Positions 1 through 55,035 of a stretch of DNA of 64,000 bases are shown here, one piece after another. The notes below the pieces were generated by a model. The model saw only the letters and a program-made list of their open reading frames with translations. It did no database searches and was not told where the DNA came from. A program made the translations under genes and the position numbers. Each line of letters opens with the position of its first letter. The stretch's first letter is position 1. The DNA is from Antedon mediterranea (taxonomy: Eukaryota > Echinodermata > Crinoidea > Comatulida > Antedonidae): NCBI RefSeq assembly GCF_964355755.1, contig NC_092671.1, positions 19,308,001 to 19,372,000 of the forward strand. The letters are read 5' to 3'.

Positions 1-698
1 ACAAATATATTTCAACAAAACATCAACAGAGCGCCGCGCTGTGCAGGGGAGTAGGCCTTCCTATATTCCTATGTTATTATTTTAATTTAACACATACAGT
101 AGATTTTGACACATCAAATTGTAAATTAAATGTTTATTGAATCGGATCCGGTTAAATTATACATTGACGGTAGAAAAGGTTTTATTAATATTACATCTAG
201 CTAGGCCTCTAGGCCTAGTTAGTTAGGCCTAGCTAGCTAGGCCTAACCAAACTTGCATTTATTTAGGCCCATCACCACTAGGCTTACTACTACTAGGCCT
301 TAGGCCTAGTAGTACCAACAAAATACAGCAGCAGAGAAGAGCCAGACAAAGCCCAGCATCTGCCAGCAAAAGTCTAATACTAATAGCTCTCCCTTCCTTA
401 GTTTGATCGATTCGTTTGATCATGATGGAGGTATAATACCTCCATGGTTTGATTTAATGCTGGGTATATGAGAGTGCAGCAGTGGTAGTGGTAAATCCAG
501 GCGGTGAATATTTTACAGTACTTACTTACTGAATTGTAATAAATATTTAAACAACATCCAGCAGTACATGCGATCCCACTACACCTACAGCGTGAGATGG
601 ACAATTCCAATAATAAATAAGAAGTTACAAACAAGGTCGGAATAATTAGTAGATAGGCCTAGACTGCTACTATAGTATAATTCACAATAACAATAACA
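1..698. other. Upstream region of F-box gene, palindromic simple sequence
   Basis: No coding exon is visible here. Positions 197-312 are dense in aggcctag and ctagctag words that can fold on themselves. A perfect 21-base palindrome (atggaggtat, one a, atacctccat) lies at about 425-445. The short minus-strand open frame across 398-634 has no recognisable protein character. The 5' UTR and promoter of the F-box gene probably lie in the last 100-200 bases, but I see no clear TATA box. Confidence 0.5.
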
Positions 699-3382
699 AT
701 GTCAACCAAAATGAAGGAAAAAGACAGACCTTTGATTTCATATAATTCGGAGAATTCTGGTGGTAATGATATTAAAAAATTGTGTAAGAATGCAGAAAAT
801 GATGAAGGAAACATAGCTCTAGATCCCAAAATGATTGAAACTTCAAAAAATGTATTTTTAACCTTACCGGATGAGATAATGATTTTTAATATTCTACCCT
901 TACTGGACTTGATGGAAGTTTGTATCTGTAAAGCGGTGTGTAAGAGATGGAAATGTTTAATACACGCATATTTTTCGCAGTTGAAAGAATTAGATCTTAC
1001 ACCTTGGAGTTACTTAATAGAAGAGGATCATCTGATATCAATAATACGACATACACGATGTCTCAGATATTTAAGGTTAATTATAATCAACAAACCACTA
1101 AGCAACAGTATAAAATTACGTTAAAGTCTGGGGTGTAGCCAAAGAATTTTTATTGATATATTCCAATAATTATCGATCTACAATTTTTCCATATTATTTG
1201 GATTGTGTGTACAATTTTAAATTGTGCAAATCGTTCAATTTGTGCATAACAGTCATTAATACACCTTTTAAAAATATTGCACTTTCTTATCAGTCAGGAT
1301 ATAGTAAGTTCAAAATGCTCGGTAAAATCCCTATTCTTCTCTAACAAATATTATAAATATTTAACCATACATACTCAGGAGGTGATTTCATACTTTTTAG
1401 AATTGGAGCCACTTGAAAATCATTACTAAATGATAATAAGATCATGATTTACTGTAATAAGTCTCTAATATTACTTATAGAACATTAGTTCACATAATTT
1501 CCCTACCTGCCTTTGAAATGTGAAGAGGAAAATAAATGTTTTCTTGGGGGAAATTGCTCTGTATGTATGTATTTTCCCAACTCCATTTCAACCCTGAGCT
1601 TTATAAGTTCAACTCTTGTCAACAAAATTGAATATTGCATGTATAGTAAAGGATTATAAAGGAAAGAAATTTGGATTGGTCCCTCTATAGACCCACATTC
1701 ACTTGCACTATAAATTCCTTAATTGTTTAGATGTTTGCCCTACTCTGATGTAGTTGTACTTTATACTAAAGTTTGGTTCTCCTGCAATGCAATGATGTAA
1801 GTGCATGCAAGTGAGCTTAACAATGACAAATCGATTGATTGTGATTAGTCAAATGCTTGCCTTGCTTTGTATTATCAAATGTACATAGAAAACATTACAT
1901 CAGAGTACGGCAAACATCTGACCAATTAACTTGGCTCTCTGGCGCAAAGCTACTTTGAAGTAATTATTAAATTAGCTTCCTTATTTGCTTTTCTACCAGA
2001 CTAAGTGTATGTTGGAAAGCAGTAACAGAATGTAGTTTGTCTTCAATTGCATCTTCATGTCGAAACCTTGAGGTGTTTGCAGCTAGTAAATGTGGTAAAC
2101 TGACGGACTCAGCAATCACTAAACTGGTGACAAGATGCCATAATATACAAGAATTAGACTTGAGTAGTTGTTATAATGTAAGGTTACTAGAATTACTTAC
2201 TTTAGTTAGTCTTGTATTGTTATTATGTGTTTCATTATCGTTAAACTGAGCATACTGTACATACATTTTGAAAAAAAATTCTTTTAAAAGTGCAGAAATT
2301 CACCTGTTATATACATACAATACATTATATTTATTATTTTCTATGAAATTTAAGAGGAAATATGATCCGTCTAAGCCAAATATAGTCAAATCCTAAGCCA
2401 GACACCCTTAGAATTGTGGTTCAAAATGATTCATTTCTAATACAGTAGTAAAAAAGAATTTGGGATCTTTTGTATCTTATAGATTCCATAAGATATAGTC
2501 TTATTTGACATGATAAGAGTCAACTGTAGTACAGTATAATTCTGAAACATTGCTTTGTCAATAATCTTCTTGTACGTAAAGTATTTTATATCGTGTAATT
2601 TAATTTAATTTTTCAGATTACCGATAATGCTCTTATTGAAATAGCAAGGCACTGCAAGAACATAAAGGAGCTATATTTAAGTAGTATATACAGTGTTACA
2701 GACATTGGTGTGAATGAGTTAGCTAAGCATTCAAAGACACTAGAGGAATTGGATGTTAGCTATTGTTTTACATTAACTAATGATAGTATGTTACAACTGG
2801 CACAGTTGAAACAATTTGGATCTTTGAAATCACTTCGTATAAAAGGATGCTCAAAGGTATGCATGCAATATATTGTCCCCCTCAAAAAGAAATGTGCTAA
2901 ATGTTTTTGTTGAATATGCCATTTTAATGTCGCATAATAGAAATTATTTTGAAAATTTGTTATGGAAGTGATTAACTTGATTAAAAATGCCAAATCTTCA
3001 TCTTCATTTTTCATGTTTTTTGGGAACAATTATTAAGAATGATATATCTACGAACTGAAAATATCTTGTCCAAAAGTCGCCCAATCTTTTTATTTAACAA
3101 AATAATTTATTCAATATATATGAGGACAAGCTTTTCTCTAAGAAAAGGCTTAACAGCAATGAAAATGTCAAACCGACATAAAAGAGAAATGATTTTGGTG
3201 AAATTTCATTCTAAGAAATGAAAATTCTCAAACATATTCACTAAGTTGCTTTGCTGAAATTCATGTTGTGATTATTGTTTACTTAGTATTTGATCATGTG
3301 TATGTTTTCTTTATATTAGGTGTCTGAGGAAACAGCACTAAAGTTAATGCAGACTGGTATTGAAGTGAACAATATGTTCTGA
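699..3382 (+). CDS. F-box and leucine-rich-repeat protein (4 exons, 285 aa)
   Basis: Exons are 699-1075, 2000-2177, 2617-2856 and 3320-3382. Each junction is GT-AG and the phases join cleanly (125 codons plus 2 bases, then 1 base, then phase 0). The stop is TGA at 3380-3382. An F-box lies at about residues 50-90 (LPDEIMIFNILPLLDL, then VCKRWKCLI). It would bind Skp1 and place the protein in an SCF ubiquitin ligase. The rest is a run of LRRs of the cysteine-containing F-box type, with repeated L..L.L..C and LTD..I..L patterns (for example IQELDLSSCYN and LEELDVSYCFTLTNDSM), which would bind the substrate. At 285 aa it is short for an FBXL protein. I do not assign an orthologue. ATG 699 is chosen because an upstream in-frame alternative is not evident and the F-box is complete. 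Family assignment is strong; substrate unknown. Confidence 0.82.
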
Positions 3383-3399
3383 GAGTCATTTTACTTGAA

Positions 3400-3720
3400 T
3401 TGATGATCAATTGCACCAGCGGAAATCAGTCAACTTGACCCGAATTGCCCTCCATACTAGGCTTATTAGGACCAAGCTGACCGCTTAGTTTCTGCCCGCA
3501 AGGCTGTGAGGAACCAACTATGTAGTGGTGCTCTATTTAATCAGTGTTTTATTTGGGCTAGTCGAGTTCAATGCATGCTTGTCACGTTGCATGTTTCCTT
3601 AGGCAAGACACTTGCGCTTGCCTCTCTCTACCCAGGTGTACAAATGGGTACCTGGTTGGGTCAAAGCATCAACTGCGCTGATACTGACTGCATCATCAAA
3701 ATAACTGAGGTAAAAATGTG
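3400..3720 (+). repeat. SINE-like dispersed repeat
   Basis: Immediately 3' of the F-box stop codon, the sequence changes to a more GC-rich stretch. It contains ctaccaggtgt-type core words (acccaggtgtacaaatgggt at about 3631-3650) and a caagacacttgcgcttgcc block. From memory this core is typical of short interspersed repeats in marine animals. No tRNA-like head is convincing. Open frames here are not genes. The family name is not determined. Confidence 0.4.
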
Positions 3721-4112
3721 AGAGCATCATTTGAAAATGTATATATGGAATTTGCTCTATAATGAATAGTTAACTGTAGATTTTAGTTGCCCAAAGAAGT
3801 TCTAGTATGATCAGGCATTAAGAAGAGACATTGAATAATGGTGGTATTATATAGCATGACTTGAAACATAAATGTTATGGTTAATGTCTGTAAGTGTACA
3901 ATTTGTTTAACACAAATTGTTTCCGAAATGAACGCAACACAATAACGTAGGCACAAGACAAGTGATTTTACCAATCACAAGTGACAGTTCGGATGATCCA
4001 TCACATCGTGTTTGGACTAATTGCATCGCTTTAGCTTGTAATTAATTTTTTTTATAATATTCTACTGTCCTTTTGGCAAGTATTCTTAGTAATATTGTAT
4101 ATATATATTCGC

Positions 4113-4740
4113 TTAAAGACACCTTCCCTACGTTTTTTAGATCTATTTTAAGATCACAAACTATATTTAATGTAAAAATAATACTATATGGTCCTATTGC
4201 GATAACTTTTCTCGTCTTTAAATGGTTAAAAATGTGAAAAATAAGTCGATTCTAATAATTATAGCGGCCCGCTATAAATCCCAAAATGCCTTGCACGCGG
4301 ATTGATATTTCTGCTTTTCTTCTGTAATTAACCCACTTTTCGATCAATCGCGAGGCCAAAACAAATGGAAGACTCCTAACTTTTCAGCGAAAATACCAGG
4401 TTTTCCCCAATTTGTGTCAACGGAGTCTGGCAAAAATAGAAAGACAATTAATGCAGCAACTATACAACGTCAGACTAGGTATATAGCTAGCGTACGATGT
4501 TCGTACGTTACCGATGTTTACCAGCTAGGCAAAACAAACAAGTCAAAACTAGGCCTAAAGACACCGTCCACGAGAGGTCAGTCGCCGCGACCTACTTAGT
4601 TAGTGCATTGTTTCTCATTTTTTATCATAATTTACCATAAAACGTACATTTAAGACAAGGAATGACCTGGTTTAATGTTTTTAAAGTAATATTGTATTAT
4701 TTTTACAAAACGTCACAAATTGTAGGGAAGGTGTCTTTAA
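4113..4740. mobile_element. TTAA-flanked MITE with terminal inverted repeats
   Basis: The left end reads TTAA then AGACACCTTCCCTAC (4113-4131). The right end is GTAGGGAAGGTGTCT then TTAA (4722-4740). The 15-base inverted ends are exact, and the TTAA target duplication is the type made by Kolobok and piggyBac superfamilies. The element is 620 bp (4117-4736) and has no transposase, so it is a non-autonomous derivative. A diverged copy of its right third lies at about 25205-25336 in a DHX30 intron. Superfamily cannot be settled from the ends alone. Confidence 0.75.
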
Positions 4741-5223: not shown

Positions 5224-5376
5224 GCACTGTCTACAATATCAAACAAGTTTGACAAAAAAGTATGATGTGCTCAAATATATTAGTAATATGCCCAAATATG
5301 GTAGTGATATGACATCATTATGCCCATTACATCATATCATTTTTGTCACATAAAGATTGATATTGTAGACAGAACT
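5224..5376. mobile_element. Short MITE, family A copy 1
   Basis: About 150 bp with inverted ends: left ctgtctacaatatcaa near 5227, right ttgatattgtagacag near 5357-5373, each followed inward by gttTGACAAAAA / tttttGTCA. The same organisation recurs at 35233-35385 and 63115-63230, so it is a dispersed family. It lies downstream of the RPE stop codon. Confidence 0.65.
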
Positions 5377-5537
5377 TAATACTTAGTACTGCTCATGTGA
5401 AATGTAGAGCTTTTGTAAGGCGTGCAGTGTTTTGTTGACCTACAGTAGTACATCAAAGTTAAACACTATGGCTTTACCTGTTGTATTAATGGTTTTCATT
5501 ATCAACCTACTGTTGCTTATCAACAGCTTTAAATATT

Positions 5538-8500
5538 TCATCTTTCAAGCTGCGATCGTTGGATCACATCCTGAACACAGTTTCTCATTTGGTTTATGAC
5601 ACGCCTTGGATCATCACTGCCAACGACGGCACTTCCGGAAACTATCATATTTGCACCCGCCTACAAGAAATATAAATATTAATTATGAGGTGTTCTGTTT
5701 AAATGGACAACTGAAGAATTTTCATGAAAGAAGAAAACAGTAAACTAAGGAAAGAGTCATTCAAATCGATTTGAAAACTCGTCTTTTTAACTTTTTTTTT
5801 TCTTAGTTTTCCACTTTTGCTTTCTTTGTTTAGTGCATTGGGACTTTGCATAGTGCGATTTATTCATTTATTATTATTACATGCAATTATTAATGCAGAT
5901 GGGAAAATATCCGCTTTAAATTTGTTTTACCGGGTGACAGGTGGTCACTATTTATTTATGTCCTGCTTGACCTACACATTCAAAATAAGTTCTCAGTTAG
6001 GCCTACATAAAACCTGGTTGAATGTGAATGCAAACTTATATTACCTCAGCAGCTTTGCCTATAGTGGCAGGGCCAATTCCACCATCCACTTCTATATCTA
6101 GCGATCTAAATCTTTCCCGTAATGCTCGCACCTATAAAATATCAAGACAGTACTATATATATATAGGTATTTATTCATAAAAAAACACATAAATAGTACA
6201 AACAGAAGGCAGCCCAACGGCTGAAAAATTCTGCAAACAACGTACAAAGTAAAAATTTAAAAGACTTAACAACAATATAAAATATACAAGTACACAGTAA
6301 ATCAGATCATTAAAAAGCCGTTAAAATTCAATGATGAGAAATTGAATGTTACTATGGCTTAGGTATAGTATTATCAGCTAACTAGAATGAAAATTGTACA
6401 GCATCTTTTCGCCCATAACAGTGAGTGCTTGGATATTGTGTCATCTAAATAGATAAATGTAAGACTAGTACTTTTCATACACAATTAAGAACGGTACTGG
6501 GATATTTCTTAATTCAGGTATAAGCCCACCCCAAACCTTAAATTAATTTTTCATACAGAATTGAAAATTTACTTGTGTGTCTGCCGACAATTTTTTTTGT
6601 AACACCCTCTATGGCTAATTGTATCTCATTTACATACTTATGCATAATACTGTAGTTATTGTTTACTTTTGGAATTATTGTTCATTCCTGATGATGATCA
6701 AATAAAGATCAATATTTGGAGTCATTTTTATACTATGGAATTAGAACAGTGTTTGTATATTTGTTGATCCAGGTATTAGTCCACCACCCACATTGACCCA
6801 TTCCATTTAAAAGGACAGGACTATTTATATGCAAAAGAACAAAAGAGAACATACTAGTGTTGTGTAATATCTCGTATGAAAGGAAGTTAGCTAATCTAAA
6901 ATTCATTCATAAATACTTTATTTCTAACAGTAAACAAGGGATGTAGCACAGGATATCCTCCTAGTTGCAAGCAACGGATAAACTCATTAAACACAAAAAC
7001 AAGTAATCTAATACTAATACTGTAGTAACTTGTGTCATGGTCAAATGATCGAACCAAAGAATCTTCAATAATATGGAATGTTATGTTTATTATTAAGGGA
7101 TCCTACTAAACACATACACTCCACACAATGATATGCAACCGTCCCCTAAATAATCACCTTACTCCTAAATATCTTAACCCTCTTGATTACTCCCTTTGAG
7201 AGTACTAGTGAATTGCGTCATACAGTACTCTAGGTACGTGTGCTACTACAGTATTATGTATACATATAGTAGCATGTAGTTGTGTATTGAGTTTAGTAGG
7301 ACCCAAAGATCTTATATACTAAAGATGTGACACTACCCGCGTTTACGCGTCAAATTATAGTGCGCCCCCTCGCTTAAACAAGTAACAAACTTTTGCGTGA
7401 CGATCGCAGTATTCTTTAGGGATTGAGTATTCGCGCCAAAGTTTGTATGGTTAACAAACAATGAATGAAAAGAGAAAAAGTGGAGGGATGTACTGTGCTG
7501 CAATTAATTGTAAAAGCAATTCAAAGTCCAACCCAGAACTTAAGTTTTACAATTTACCCAAAGACAAGAACAGGTAAATTTATGTAATTAAATAAGTAGC
7601 CTACATCTTAACATATGCTATGTGGGACTAATCTTACTTTACTGTATTCAATTTATACATAATTAATAAACTAGGCTAGGTAGGCCTATTATTAATAATT
7701 ATTATTTAAACGTATGAAATGATTATTATTATCATTATTAGGCTACTACTAGTACATTAGTTATATAACAGTGAAATTACACTAATTTCACTGTTCCCTG
7801 ATTATATTACTTATCCTTTAAAATTTAGTACCCTTAACAAACAATTTTTAAAACTTTCAATTCAAGAAACATTTATTGACCAAATATATATCATTACAAT
7901 TGTTGGCATATAAGTAAAAATTTGGTCGAAAGACTACAAGAAGCCCAATTGGCATGTCGCTGTAGTCTCTCTTTTTACATTATACAAATAATAATAATAA
8001 TAATAATACTTAATATAAACAAATTGTGATCTTGATTATTTCATGCTTTCCGTCTCATGGTTAATATTTGCTTTCTGTCTCATGGTTATTTTATTTCGTT
8101 TAATTTAACTAGCCGTTACATACATTACAGTATATTAACGCATGAAATGATTATTATTATCATTATTAGGCTAGGACATTAGTTATAATAACAGTGAAAT
8201 TACACTATTTGTATTGTTCCCTGGTTATATTACTTATCCGTTGAGTAGCCCTAACAAACAATTTTTAATTGAATCTTATACTTAATATTTATGAAATTCA
8301 ACCGTTAGTTAGTTAGTTAGTGGTTTTAGGTTAGGCTTAAGTATTTGACTTTAGGCCCTAACCAATTTGAAAATCAATTAGCATGCACGTAGACTTCCTA
8401 TAATTACGTAAACGTTAATTATATGATAAAGCAAAAACTCACTAGACAATTATTAATTTACAGGTGTGCAAAATGGGCCCAGAACACACGACGCGCGGAT

Positions 8501-8780
8501 TTGAGAATTTACACCGTAATTGCCAATTGTGCAATATTCATTTCGAAGAATCTCAAATAATGATGGTCACAGGCAGACTAAATCAAGATTGCATTGAGAA
8601 CTTATTTTCTATTGTCAGAAGGAGAGGGGGTCATCGCTATAACCCGATGGCAAATGAATTTAGAGCCTCCCTGAAGGAAGTTATGTTCAACAGGATGTTG
8701 TTCCGTTAGGGAATTCGAATTGCCTAGAAAACACTGATCGACAGTACAGCTAAATGGAATTGATGCAATAATGATGGCCC

Positions 8781-8812
<32 letters not shown>

Positions 8813-11800
8813 ACGCCACAATCGCATCATGTTGTCGATCAAGAAGACAACGATGCCACCACTGACGACGACTGCTGCTTAGAGAAGACTTTGAGATGAC
8901 TCAGCTAAATACTTTAGTATATGTAGCCGGTTACGTCGTCAAGAAAGTAAGTGTAAAGCACAACTGCGATATCTGTAACAGTGCGATGCGAGAAACCAAT
9001 CAAAAACTGGAAGACCCAAAGCAGTTCCTAACACATTTTAAGTCTTATATGCTCATCAACCAGTAAAACGACTTCGGAGGATTAATTATGCCTACTGACA
9101 ATGTAGTCAATGTCCTATCTATCTGTGAAAAGATTTTTGTTTCTAACTTTAACAAATACTTACATACATCAAACATCAGCAGAAAAATAAAGTTAAAAAT
9201 CGCTACCATGTTACATAGGTTTGGTATGAAGTTGAATCTTTGTTCAACAGCAATTGAAACATTGCTAATTGAAATGTACGTAAACCTACGCATATTATAT
9301 GCTGTTAAATTCTTCAGAGACATAATCAGTGATAAGAAGAAGAGTAAAAAATTAATTATAAAGTATCACATTTATGAGGTATGGTAAAGTTGTAGGAGGT
9401 CTGTACGCGCCCCGGTCTGTGCATTATCGGCTAGAAATGATGATCATTACGACGGTCTGGTATGATGATTGAATAATTGTAAATATGATGATTTTATTTC
9501 AATGTTTCTGCATTTTTTATATTTCCTCTGGGTGGCCCGTGCATCATTTCGCAATAGTTATTGAGTTAATTTTAAACTGAGACTACTATAACATAATTAA
9601 TTGTTATCTGAGGTTTTAAATAAATTATAATAATAAATGAATGTCATGGCGAATGATGGGTACATGTATGCCTAGTATGAATTGTCTCAGAATTGACTAT
9701 CATAATCTGTTTCATCATGCCTGTAGGCTTAAGCCTATGATTGTTTATAAATATATTCCGAAAAATTACTGCAATAAAATAGTCGAAGTAGTGATTTTAA
9801 AAAGTGACTTCTTGTTCTTTTTTAATTGTTTATAACACACTATTTGACTAATATATTTTCCTAATCTGCACTGTTTTGCTGCTGGATGAAAAAGAAGAAC
9901 ACATCAAGAACAAAAACGGAATACGATGCGCTTAGTGTTAATACCAGAGGGACCGACTCGGATAAATAAGTAGTTGTGATGTGAGTGATGATTACTCCTA
10001 GATGATGATTTTGAGGATGATGATAAACATTCAATAATAACAACAATATTCAGTAATTAAAACAAATAGAGATATACAAAGTACAGGAAATAAGTCTATC
10101 ATTATAATTTAATCGCACATTACCGCAATTATTGTGATGAAAAAAATTACAAGTTACAATACACAGTAGACATATCTGATCCATAAATCTACTTGTTTGA
10201 GCGAGAGGGCACCCTATAAAATGAGCTCCATGTGTGTTACATAAATTGCACGTAAAATTCCGAGAGTGTCCCATCTTTAGTATATAAGATCTTTGGTAGG
10301 ACCATTATTAAGTATATTACATGAAAGAATTATTTGTTTGCTTAAGGTACTAAGGAATTACATACAAACTTTTTCCTAAGCCAGCCATTACACTTTAACA
10401 TAATGCTGGTACTATATATTATTGTTCATATGACCTTCACAATGTCATGGAATTGCTTATTGGACTGAAACACATGCACTCACCATGAAGGTTTCCTCCA
10501 TGCATAGAGATATTATAATATAATTCCATGTAAATACTATGTGGCTGTTTTTTTTAAACATTATTACAGCATTATTTACCCTTTATTCAGAAAGTTTGTA
10601 ATATTCACTAAAGGCATTGTTTATTACATAATAATATTAACCATGGTTAAAGCCAAAGTTTTTATCATGTATTCGGACACCCAGGAGAATTTTTCCAGGA
10701 GCCTGGTTTTGTTTAGGGGTAGTTTGTGGGGTTTGTAGAGGGGTAGATGTCTCTAGAACCTTCCAAGGGCGTCCAACTTATTGACCCAGACCATCCATTC
10801 TACCACTACAGATCTTTTATATTATATTTTTAACCAGTTTTAGTTGTGGATCATTTCTATTGGCAATCTGGACAATAAAATGGCACATGACGACTCAACA
10901 ATGGAGCAGATTGAAACAGCTGTAATGGTGTTACCTTTGACATCATATCTTCCATAAATTTCTGTCCTCCAAAACCAGGTTCGACTGTCATCACCAGTAT
11001 CATGTCTACGTCCTCAACATACGGCATCACTACATCAACTGATGTACCTGGCTTGATACCAATTCCAACCTGATTAATGATGACAAATAACATTATAAAC
11101 ATATTATAAAAACAGAACTGATTTGGATTTTACGACTAACATACCATAATGCACATTTACATTAACATGTGTACAAAAGGCTTTTTGAAACTACATGATG
11201 GATTCAAATAATAATTTAAAAAAATGTCAATTACAAAAAAATCAGTTTTTTTATTCTATCAATTCTATTCAACAAAAAGTTACATTTTCAATTGAAATTG
11301 ATCAAAAACATAAAATCCTTTATTTTTCAGATTGATACAGCATTTTGAAACTTTACTTTTATAATAGTGGCGCACAATAATGGTGCTTTCACAAAAAGGC
11401 AAACACATCATTACGTACATTTTACTACAAACTATAAGTAACATATAGCTATACAAACAAATGACATAAAAAGCAATGTGTAAAATATTTCATTTAATAA
11501 ATTGAATTGAAAAGATGTACATTAGTAAAGATAAAATATTGTAAACTTTACATGTAATAAAATGTTTTAAATGATTCAATTAATTCATTCAATTGGATAT
11601 TTTAAAAATTTTATTAAAATAAATCCACTACAATAATTAAGAGAATCAGTCATTAAGCTTGCAATGAGTTAAAGCTGAACTGTGTACTAGTATAATACAT
11701 ACTCCAGGTATAAATACACACAATCATGATAGGATTCAATATTTTGACGTTAACTATATCATCATCAGCAACAACACTTGACTCCTAATGACACAGTTTA

Positions 11801-51400: not shown

Positions 51401-52545
51401 TCACAATCCTCCAAATCGTGCAAAATTGTGCCAAAGCCCAGGCAAAGCTAAATTTTCTTGAATCGTATCAGGTGGAACTGAAGTTTGAGTCATAAGGTTT
51501 AGACTGAGCGACCTCCCCATATCTAATTTTTCTTCATCTGAAACACGTTGGTAGATGGAAAGTGAACTTACTGACTTGTGACCCGTAACGTATTGAATTT
51601 GTGATGCTGCAAAATGTTCTCGTGAAAGTATTGTAGCACCAGTAACACGTATTGAATGATTGGTGTACACTTTTGTAAGTTTGTATTTTCTACTGAGATT
51701 CTTCATGAAACCTCAAAGTGTAACAATCTCTACACACTTAATACACTATCATATTATTGTTCTTGATTGGAGCAATTAGGGTTCAAATGTTGAAGATAGC
51801 TTTCAAATGTTGAAGATAGCTTTCAGATGATGCAACTGTGTTTCTTTTTATTTCTGGCATTAGTGCTGTGTAGCTCTGCCTTCAAACTCATTGTGGTTTT
51901 TGTTAAATTCATCGATAGCTTTGCATATGTATGTCTCTATTTACATCAGTCCTAATGACAAATGTGCGTTTTGTCATTTCATGCCTATTTTCAGCTCCTC
52001 GCCGAAAAAAATAAAATCTAATGTCAAACTGATCCTTTTCTTGCAGCACGAAAGGATCTTGCATCGATTCGAAATTGCTGTATAGCTTTTGTAAATCCAA
52101 TTTGACTATTTCAGGATGATGCGAAATTTCAAGTTTGACTTGACGTAATGCTGCCTTAAAATATTGGTTGGATGTTTTAAACTCCCTCTCCTTGATTATA
52201 TCTAATCCTCTTTCATATGGTGGATGGTTTAAATGTCTATTTAAGCTATGGCGAAAACTTTATACAGTGATTTCTCACCGTAACCGTCGCTGCTCCCTGA
52301 AGTTTCACAGTCACGGTTTTGCTTCCGAGCACCTAGCGGTTTCATTCAGTTTTTCCGGCGGAAATATCTCAAAGCATATTACATCATCCCCACTTTCCTC
52401 CAAATATGCCCGAAATGCCCTGGCTGCTTTCAAATTCGCTTTGATTGTGTTTTTCGGTGTGCTAGATGTCTTTTATTACCGATATTTCTTCCCTTGAATG
52501 GTGTTGAAATCGACAACCTTTATTTTCATCCATTTTGACCTCTAG
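51401..52545 (-). pseudogene. Crypton-type tyrosine recombinase, degenerate
   Basis: In coding order: about 52545-52330 gives TPKNTIKANLKAARAFRAYL and FEIFPPEKLNE. 52250-51909 gives SFRHSLNRHLNHPPYERGLD, DLQKLYSNFESM, then FDIRFYFFRRGAENRHEMTK. 51706-51401 gives YTNHSIRVTGATIL, YVTGHKSVSSLSIYQRV. The last frame holds the tyrosine recombinase motif HxxR (His-Ser-Ile-Arg), the GHKS histidine and the nucleophile Tyr in IYQRV. Stops and frame changes separate the pieces. The layout matches Crypton / KIAA1958-like (DUF3504) proteins, which cut and join DNA through a 3'-phosphotyrosine. The early catalytic arginine is not clearly preserved. Confidence 0.75.
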
Positions 52546-52559
52546 CTATCAACAACAAT

Positions 52560-53640
52560 AGGGAGCTTTCAACGATTACGCTCCGAAGCTTTTTTTATGG
52601 ACCATCGAATTTGGGTTCATATTCGATGGTAGAAATCACAACTACCCATGCGCTCAATGATAAAAATACGCGCATAGAAACATCAACCAGGTAGTATGGG
52701 ATATATTACCCTTCTGATCCGCTTGACTGAGTAAATGGGCGTAATACAGAATTATATCTCATACATATTGACCAATCGTATTACAGAATTCATGTACACT
52801 AAGAGATAATAATAAATATATTATAATAATATAAATAAATCATTTTCCTGCTGTTATATTTAACGACCTAAACAATTGAGCAAGTACTGCAAAGTATAAA
52901 AAACTTTTACCAATTTCCTGCATTTTTATTGTGTCTTTTGACACTTTAATTCTCTATTAAAATATTTATCGGCATAAAAAAGCCTCGTTCGAACAAAAAA
53001 ATTAATATTTCAATTTCCAGTCCACACACGTGAAGTTGTTTACCTACTCTACGAAAAGTCACATTTATGTGTAATTTAATCTTTTCACCAATATTGCTGG
53101 TAGGTAAATATTTGTTAAAACACTTTTAAAACTATTCCACACACTAATGTCAAACTAACCATGATAGGATGGAACAAACAGTGAACAGAAATATCACTCG
53201 TCAACAGAAAATGCCTTGAAATGTGCCTTGTGTGTCATTTATTAACACATTTTTACAAGCATTAAAATCATGTTTTGTCAAAACCTTTTGATTAGATAGC
53301 CAGCAATATAAACATTCATTTGGGGGTGGTCTGGCCTCATTGTTTATTCTATCACTAACATTTCACCGAGTTTTTCCACTTCAAATCCTCTCTATTGCTA
53401 ATAATCATCATCATTTACACTGTTTTTTGTTACCAAGAGGAACCATCATTTTTTTAACCGTAATTTGCTTTAATGAAGCACAAACTTTCACCTCTTTCTC
53501 TTATAGCAGAAAACAAATCCAGGCAATCTTGATAGTCTGTTTGTTAGTATGAAATTGAAATTAAAGTGGTTATTTAGGTCATTAAATAACTTGGTCATCC
53601 CTTGTATTGTTAACCATCCTTTTAGGCAATCAATATTTGT
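52560..53640. other. Intergenic DNA between Crypton and P-type fragments
   Basis: AT-rich. No coding exon, RNA gene or clear repeat was recognised. Confidence 0.5.
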
Positions 53641-53649
53641 TGTAGATTC

Positions 53650-54690
53650 ATCTTTTACGGAAAGATTTTTTATCCATTCGATGGACTTCTATAAATTACC
53701 TTGTCATTAAGATTCCTTGAATCACAGGAATCAAAAAGCTTATCAAATTTATTTATAAATTCTGCAGTATGAACTGCCTCAGAATTTAATTTTCCTAAAG
53801 ACGCATAGGTTAATATACCCGATGCTACACTATGGCTTAATACCTGTGCAGCTAGACATACCCTCATTGGAGTAAACGGTGGTAGTTCTATGTGTTTATC
53901 GGTTAACTTGGGTGCCATTCTCAATGCCAACTTTGAGTCATGCCTATAGAAGTCAGCAATGTGTTGCCACTTTATCTCGTGCCCATTATCAATGAATATG
54001 TGCCTTTTCAAATTGTTTTGAACAATCTTTAGCAAATGAGGTCAATCAAACATGAAATAAATCTTATGTGTACTAGTATTAATTGTACAATATATGGTTT
54101 CTCTTCATTGACACCAAATAACGTAAACATCTTACTTTTATAATAAGACTTCACAATGCAATCGTTCACTAGAAGCTTGATGCCAGAAACTATCCTAGTT
54201 GTTGCTTCCATTTTGATGCCATTCCTTGAACCATACCAATGGTACCATAATCTTCCATTGCTTCCATTACATCCTTATGTGAATTGTATACTAATCCATC
54301 CTTCAGTCTCATTTCATCTAGGATTAGAACACATACTTTTTTCTTTTGATCAAACGCAATTGAACGTTCTTTAAGTGATTCAAATGTCATCTCAATCTCA
54401 TTCAATCCAGGCTGAACTTCTACTCGACCTAAACACTTTCTCAACGTGTTCTCATGAGCGAGTGCGAATGTTCTTCTAAACAAACACCGTATGCTTTCGC
54501 ACTTTGATAGTGTAAATCTAATGCTAACAATTTATCTTCTTTCCTTTTTTATCCCTTTTTCCGATTCATATTGCAAAGAAATAATTCTAATGCCTTTCTC
54601 CTCATAGAATTCTTACATTTACGTAGAATACCGTTAATTGGATCACTTGAATCATCTGAAATTTTAGACTTTATTTTTTACATCTTGGCT
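53650..54690 (-). pseudogene. Second P-element (THAP9-like) transposase fragment
   Basis: The frames in order are about 54660-54480 (RKCKNSMRRKALELFL, LHYQSAKAYGVCL), 54483-54190 (FALAHENTLRKCL, VLILDEMRLKDGLVYNSHKD), then 54035-53670 (LKRHIFIDNGHEIKWQHIAD, LRMAPKLTDKHIELPPFTPM, RVCLAAQVLSHSVASGILTY and TAEFINKFDKLFD). These are middle segments of P/THAP9-type transposases. DEM likely contains a catalytic acidic residue. A gap and frame change occur near 54190-54030. The THAP domain and late C-terminus were not found here. It complements the missing centre of the element at 7304-10295 but is a separate, minus-strand relic. Confidence 0.75.
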
Positions 54691-55035
54691 TTAAAAGCAT
54701 AAAATAGTCAATGTTATTAAACATGTTAACGTTTTTAAGCCGTAATACCTTGCAATTCTGTTTCAGTTTTTATATATCGCTCGTTTTCTATTGATGTTTT
54801 CTATAAATGTCAACTTCGTCACGTGTAAATCTTTGTATGCCTTGAATGAATAGCCAGGAAATATTTCAAGTACAAAATATATCCTACATTTCCATAAATG
54901 TAGACAATAAGAATGTCTATTAGGCCTGTGTAGACATTATACAACAATAAGCATGTTTTACAATTTTTACTCGATGGTATATAAAGTTGGTTCGTACTTT
55001 CGGTACTGATTTTAACCACCTGATGTAACCCTGTG

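Follow-up and report, generated by a model that had tools for sequence, protein, structure and literature searches.

A non-autonomous P-superfamily transposon in an RPE intron of Antedon mediterranea, from a family with 7- and 8-bp target-site duplications

The Drosophila P element has 31-bp terminal inverted repeats (TIRs), subterminal inverted repeats, an 8-bp target-site duplication (TSD), a transposase with THAP, HTH and RNase H domains, and KP-like deleted copies, with mobilisation in trans (PMC7776569). Members of the P superfamily, whose terminal motif is quoted as YARNG (PMC2820524), are also described in other hosts. Zebrafish Pdre2 has a 13-bp TIR, subterminal repeats, an 8-bp TSD, a THAP9-type full-length gene and about 50 copies, many of them deleted (PMC10983969, PMC7776569). 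Medaka Izanagi is a 1.3-kb non-autonomous P element with a degenerate multi-exon THAP and 8-bp TSDs, and its promoter insertion has a demonstrated regulatory role (PMC2820524). Published P transposons of Ciona are among those cited in PMC7776569. Anopheles P subfamilies have TIRs of 27 to 31 bp, autonomous elements of 4.2 to 7.5 kb and deleted or MITE-like relatives, all reported with 8-bp TSDs (PMC1562414). Drosophila Galileo, also of the P superfamily, targets GTANTAC, with T as the second and A as the penultimate base, and in Drosophila willistoni 7 bp is its usual TSD length, three copies having 8 bp (PMC4168063). The rarity of clean-ended P elements outside insects, on which an earlier note on the present locus had remarked, is thus overstated, as Pdre2, Izanagi and the Ciona elements were already published.

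The analysed window is a stretch of 64,000 nucleotides from the crinoid Antedon mediterranea (contig NC_092671.1, positions 19,308,001 to 19,372,000). Its P-superfamily element occupies positions 7304-10295 (2992 bp, + strand) and is flanked by exact 8-bp copies of GTAGGACC at 7296-7303 and 10296-10303. The left 31-bp TIR (CAAAGATCTTATATACTAAAGATGTGACACT, 7304-7334, + strand) and the right TIR (10265-10295, - strand) agree at 30 of 31 positions, with one mismatch, and both ends carry the inverted motif CAAAG, which fits YARNG. Subterminal inverted repeats of 35 nt lie at 7350-7384 (+ strand, core GCGCCCCCTCGCTTAAACAAGTA) and 10190-10224 (- strand); they are 83% identical and the core is kept in other copies. 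A 16-bp deletion between the left TIR and the left subterminal repeat is private to the window copy. C7303 and G10296 also pair, so that the boundary is readable one base further out; it was set at 7304/10295 because other genomic copies begin with CAAAG. A scan of the whole window for inverted ends matching at 28 or more of 31 positions with an exact 8-bp flanking duplication found no pair other than this one, and the same scan found none in 20 shuffled windows. The earlier note had reported these ends, duplication, subterminal repeats and length, and its coordinates hold on re-reading, as does the placement in RPE intron 5.

RPE is encoded on the - strand, with exons at 16826-16716, about 15588-15511, 15028-14987, 13130-13020, 11072-10932, 6131-6045 and 5660-5541. 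These were mapped with a human RPE sequence as query, and Pfam independently found the epimerase domain at the locus. Since the exons at 11072-10932 and 6131-6045 lie before and after it, the element is in the fifth intron, antisense to RPE. When its two flanks were joined and searched against the genome for a paralogous empty site, they matched only the two halves of their own locus; the flanks are single copy, and this assembly contains no empty site for the window copy.

The coding content of the window copy consists of remnants on the + strand. THAP exon 1 (7461-7573, ending in KDKN) is followed by a canonical GT donor, and the remnant of THAP exon 2 (8464-8577) is preceded by an AG acceptor and has a 16-bp deletion after position 8506 that shifts the frame. 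Directly abutting this exon, at the junction of an internal deletion, is a C-terminal piece of RNase H (8578-8670; PF21789, RNaseH_C match 1.2e-6), and a C-terminal transposase remnant with internal stop codons and a weak THAP9_C match lies at 8908-9246. The internal deletion took the HTH, the N-terminal part of RNase H and the GTP-binding domain. No long reading frame was found in the window copy and there is no complete transposase gene between its ends: with 16 bp lost from THAP exon 2, the frame broken and whole domains deleted, it encodes nothing complete. The broken and mostly missing coding region was overlooked in the earlier note.

A complete, autonomous element like the 2.9-kb P element of Drosophila would account for the 2992-bp length, the 31-bp ends, the 8-bp duplication and the pieces of THAP and transposase, but it is practically excluded by the absent domains, the frameshift in THAP exon 2 and the presence of the missing DNA in longer copies, among them one of 4231 bp. 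The window copy derives from an element of more than 4.2 kb by internal deletion and frameshift, and its similarity in length to Drosophila P, which had been taken as shared architecture, is a coincidence.

The genome assembly comprises 354 Mb in 18 contigs, nearly all of it in 11 large ones, and a search of it for COX1 found none. The 31-bp ends recur through this genome. About 40 places share the left end and at least 40 the right end, many also share the interior, and related copies number roughly 40 to 50, all of these repeat-search counts being lower bounds. Further copies with these ends, proposed in the earlier note as the check on its reading, are therefore present. The copies fall into overlapping deletion types. 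The segment between THAP and RNaseH_C that the window type lacks is present in longer copies, which encode a Tnp_P_element HTH (1.3e-7) and RNaseH_N (2e-22), both above the Pfam cut-offs. In the longest clean copy (C9:21458909-21463139, 4231 bp), THAP exon 1, which scores below the Pfam cut-off, the P-element HTH and RNaseH_N are followed by a deletion. Within the family itself, THAP scores 17.2 bits against a cut-off of 23.9, in part because an intron splits the domain; intact copies read KNR|CAKW across this GT-AG intron and end in CRLCNIHF, which is the C2CH pattern of THAP. A related locus has THAP, HTH and RNaseH_N all above the cut-offs, and the best PDB match of a 253-amino-acid frame in a sister copy (L086) is the Drosophila P transposase (6p5a, 8e-9). 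By its ends, duplication and transposase, the last comprising THAP, HTH and RNase H in longer copies and the related locus and RNaseH_C in the window copy, the family can be assigned to the P superfamily, as had been claimed.

No intact autonomous copy of the family was found in the assembly by repeat searches, the counts of which are lower bounds, and assembly gaps may hide one. In the search for such a source, the segment beyond RNaseH_N was found at C9:21460240 and partly at C6:15674741. A segment resembling the GTP-binding domain, which the window copy lacks, was found once in the family (C6:15678739), and is 50 to 62% identical over 26 amino acids to related domains. In the copy containing it (C6:15669637), most of RNaseH_N is absent and two related 3.9-kb inserts interrupt the sequence. 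At locus L100, two 3.9-kb insertions (347-4233 and 5244-9144) inside one P copy are 97.6% identical and have inverted ends AGAGCCATTGTCTGTAA with TTAA at their borders; they are a TTAA-type DNA transposon. The copy pairs C6:26811320/C6:26839246 and C3:22146056/C3:22968599 have near-identical flanks, which suggests segmental duplications that carried the element.

Target-site duplications were read from the flanks of fetched and stitched loci. Several copies with truncated ends or unclear flanks (e.g., C5:15579996 and C2:20975271) were left out of the count, and 19 independent sites with both flanks readable had clean duplications, within the 7 to 8 bp characteristic of the P superfamily. The 8-bp duplications that the earlier note expected at further copies occur at 11 of the 19: the window copy (GTAGGACC), C8:7653570 (GTTGAAAC), C8:8821523 (TTTTTTGG), C7:11965326 (CTGTACGT), C7:11966980 (GTTCGTTA), C1:20231506 (ATTGAAAT), C1:33134567 (GTATGTAT), C4:9308320 (GTTGGAGT), C2:40825164 (CTCTGATC), C4:9494583 (ATCTACGC) and C4:8350698 (ATGCGTAC). 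The other eight are 7 bp long: C2:32769075 (ATATAAC), C5:16795109 (ACGATAT), C5:18470288 (GTTTCAG, of which C11:9398856 is the same site duplicated), C3:11936494 (CTTGCCG), C9:21458909 (ATAACGT), C4:14335837 (TTATAGC), C1:21686437 (GTATGAT) and C2:10050226 (TTAAAAA). At C7:17384949 the flanks match at 6 of 7 positions.

T is favoured as the second base and A as the penultimate one in the 8-bp class (15 of 22 versus a shuffle mean of 6.5, p 0.0002) as well as in the 7-bp class (12 of 16 versus 5.6, p 0.001); these p values are exploratory, as the motif was first noticed in the same data. Length is not tied to subfamily, as 7- and 8-bp sites both occur among copies sharing one internal deletion: window-type deletions have 7 bp at C5:16795109 and 8 bp at C8:8821523, and copies with RNaseH_N have 7 bp at C9:21458909 and 8 bp at C1:20231506. 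The 7-bp sites are also unlikely to be mutated 8-bp sites, as all seven bases match exactly and each end still begins with CAAAG. A single enzyme with variable stagger would make both lengths through a common stagger chemistry.

Duplications of 8 bp are also made by hAT elements. An element of hAT or of another superfamily with 8-bp TSDs, merely containing a THAP or P-like fragment, is nevertheless very improbable and largely refuted by the 7-bp sites, the YARNG-type CAAAG ends and the P-specific transposase domains found within the same termini in many copies.

One copy (C7:11966980-11968108) is nested in another of the same family (C7:11965326-11968211). Removal of the nested copy with one GTTCGTTA leaves the family's own sequence (...AAACAAGTAACGAACTTTTGCG...), as in other copies, and this exact empty site proves target duplication for the family. 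The pair lies within a satellite array whose repeat unit is about 25 bp long (C7:11963826-11969608).

Over about 1,700 aligned sites, 13 substitutions (0.8%) are strictly private to the window copy, which also has two 16-bp deletions and a FastTree branch of 1.5%. The youngest copies are those with RNaseH_N, some on branches of 0.15 to 0.4%, values that carry no calibrated clock. These values point to recent activity of the family and to a somewhat greater age of the window copy. It appears to be a moderately recent insertion; the earlier description of it as fairly recent was right in kind, although the sister copies on the shortest branches are younger.

The best explanation, with a probability of about 95%, is a non-autonomous, internally deleted cut-and-paste copy of the P superfamily in RPE intron 5, moved by the transposase of another copy and inserted at an 8-bp staggered cut. 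Internally deleted and frameshifted, the window copy would be mobile only in trans. A full-length transposase from another copy, none having been found intact in the assembly, would recognise the 31-bp ends and subterminal repeats and excise it, the excised copy would be joined to its target through the 8-bp staggered cut, and gap repair would produce the GTAGGACC duplication. Counted against this explanation are the THAP match below the cut-off, the lack of an intact autonomous copy in the searches and the eight of 19 sites with 7 bp versus the 8 bp of Drosophila P.

That the element has been retained because it serves the host, in RPE splicing or regulation or as a THAP-type repressor, is very doubtful. 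Two deleted sister copies (C4:8352048 and C1:25880521) keep open frames of 169 to 170 amino acids over RNaseH_C, possible products reminiscent of KP-type repressors, but the window copy is antisense and intronic, its THAP frame is broken and its decay is private. The RPE locus shows no sign of consequence from the insertion.

Other mobile sequences occur in the window and elsewhere in the genome. In a second, older P-superfamily transposase relic, related to the first element and 44 kb from it (53000-54900, - strand), the GTP-binding domain is well preserved (3e-21), RNaseH_N (2e-9) and a C-terminal region are also present, and stops and frameshifts break the sequence. A tyrosine-recombinase match at 51533-51721 (- strand; PF00589, 1.4e-7), close to a sub-threshold RelA/SpoT-like match, may be what is left of a Crypton or DIRS-like element. 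Three chromosomes (L065 at C1:2823415, L066 at C3:37950354, and C8:6208861) carry a different P-type transposase whose 794-amino-acid frame is intact. Over 3.38 kb, L065 and L066 share 99.94% identity; a further P-like C-terminal frame lies on their opposite strand, and this transposase looks very recently active. A TSD-based search of the fetched DNA of P loci L061/L064 and L065 found no clean ends. This one genome contains, side by side, P-type transposase genes that are related to each other and decayed to different degrees.

The family is new, but its kind, a P-superfamily element with clean ends, is already known, deuterostomes included. It shares with Drosophila P the 31-bp TIRs, subterminal repeats, 8-bp TSDs, THAP/HTH/RNase H transposase, many internally deleted copies and, presumably, mobilisation in trans, whereas its parental element exceeds 4.2 kb, an intron interrupts the THAP region and eight of 19 TSDs are 7 bp. 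The TIR sequence also differs from that of Drosophila P, except for the terminal CA. Like Pdre2, it is a P-superfamily element of a non-insect with subterminal repeats, 8-bp TSDs and many deleted copies, but with 31-bp rather than 13-bp TIRs and no intact gene found in place of a full-length THAP9-type one. The window copy resembles Izanagi in being non-autonomous, with a degenerate multi-exon THAP and an 8-bp TSD at a host gene, and differs in its 2992-bp length and intronic position. TIR length, a long parental element and deleted relatives are shared with Anopheles P, an insect element with 8-bp TSDs throughout, unlike the present family. Galileo is a P-superfamily relative with both TSD lengths and the same T/A target preference, but its TSDs are mostly 7 bp and those of the present family are nearly equally divided; the long, internally repetitive TIRs of Galileo are absent, the TIR here being 31 bp.

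The family is a recently active addition to the P superfamily, with Drosophila-like ends of 31 bp; its mixed duplications are a mild surprise and its one point of specialist interest. There is a reasonable case that, until recently, one P-superfamily transposase cut with a stagger of 7 or 8 bp at nearly equal rates and at the same kind of palindromic T/A target, which would place it between Drosophila P with its 8 bp and Galileo with its 7 bp, though searches of the assembly found no intact source copy. Because both classes share one target preference, the determinants of the stagger are testable against Drosophila P transposase structures.
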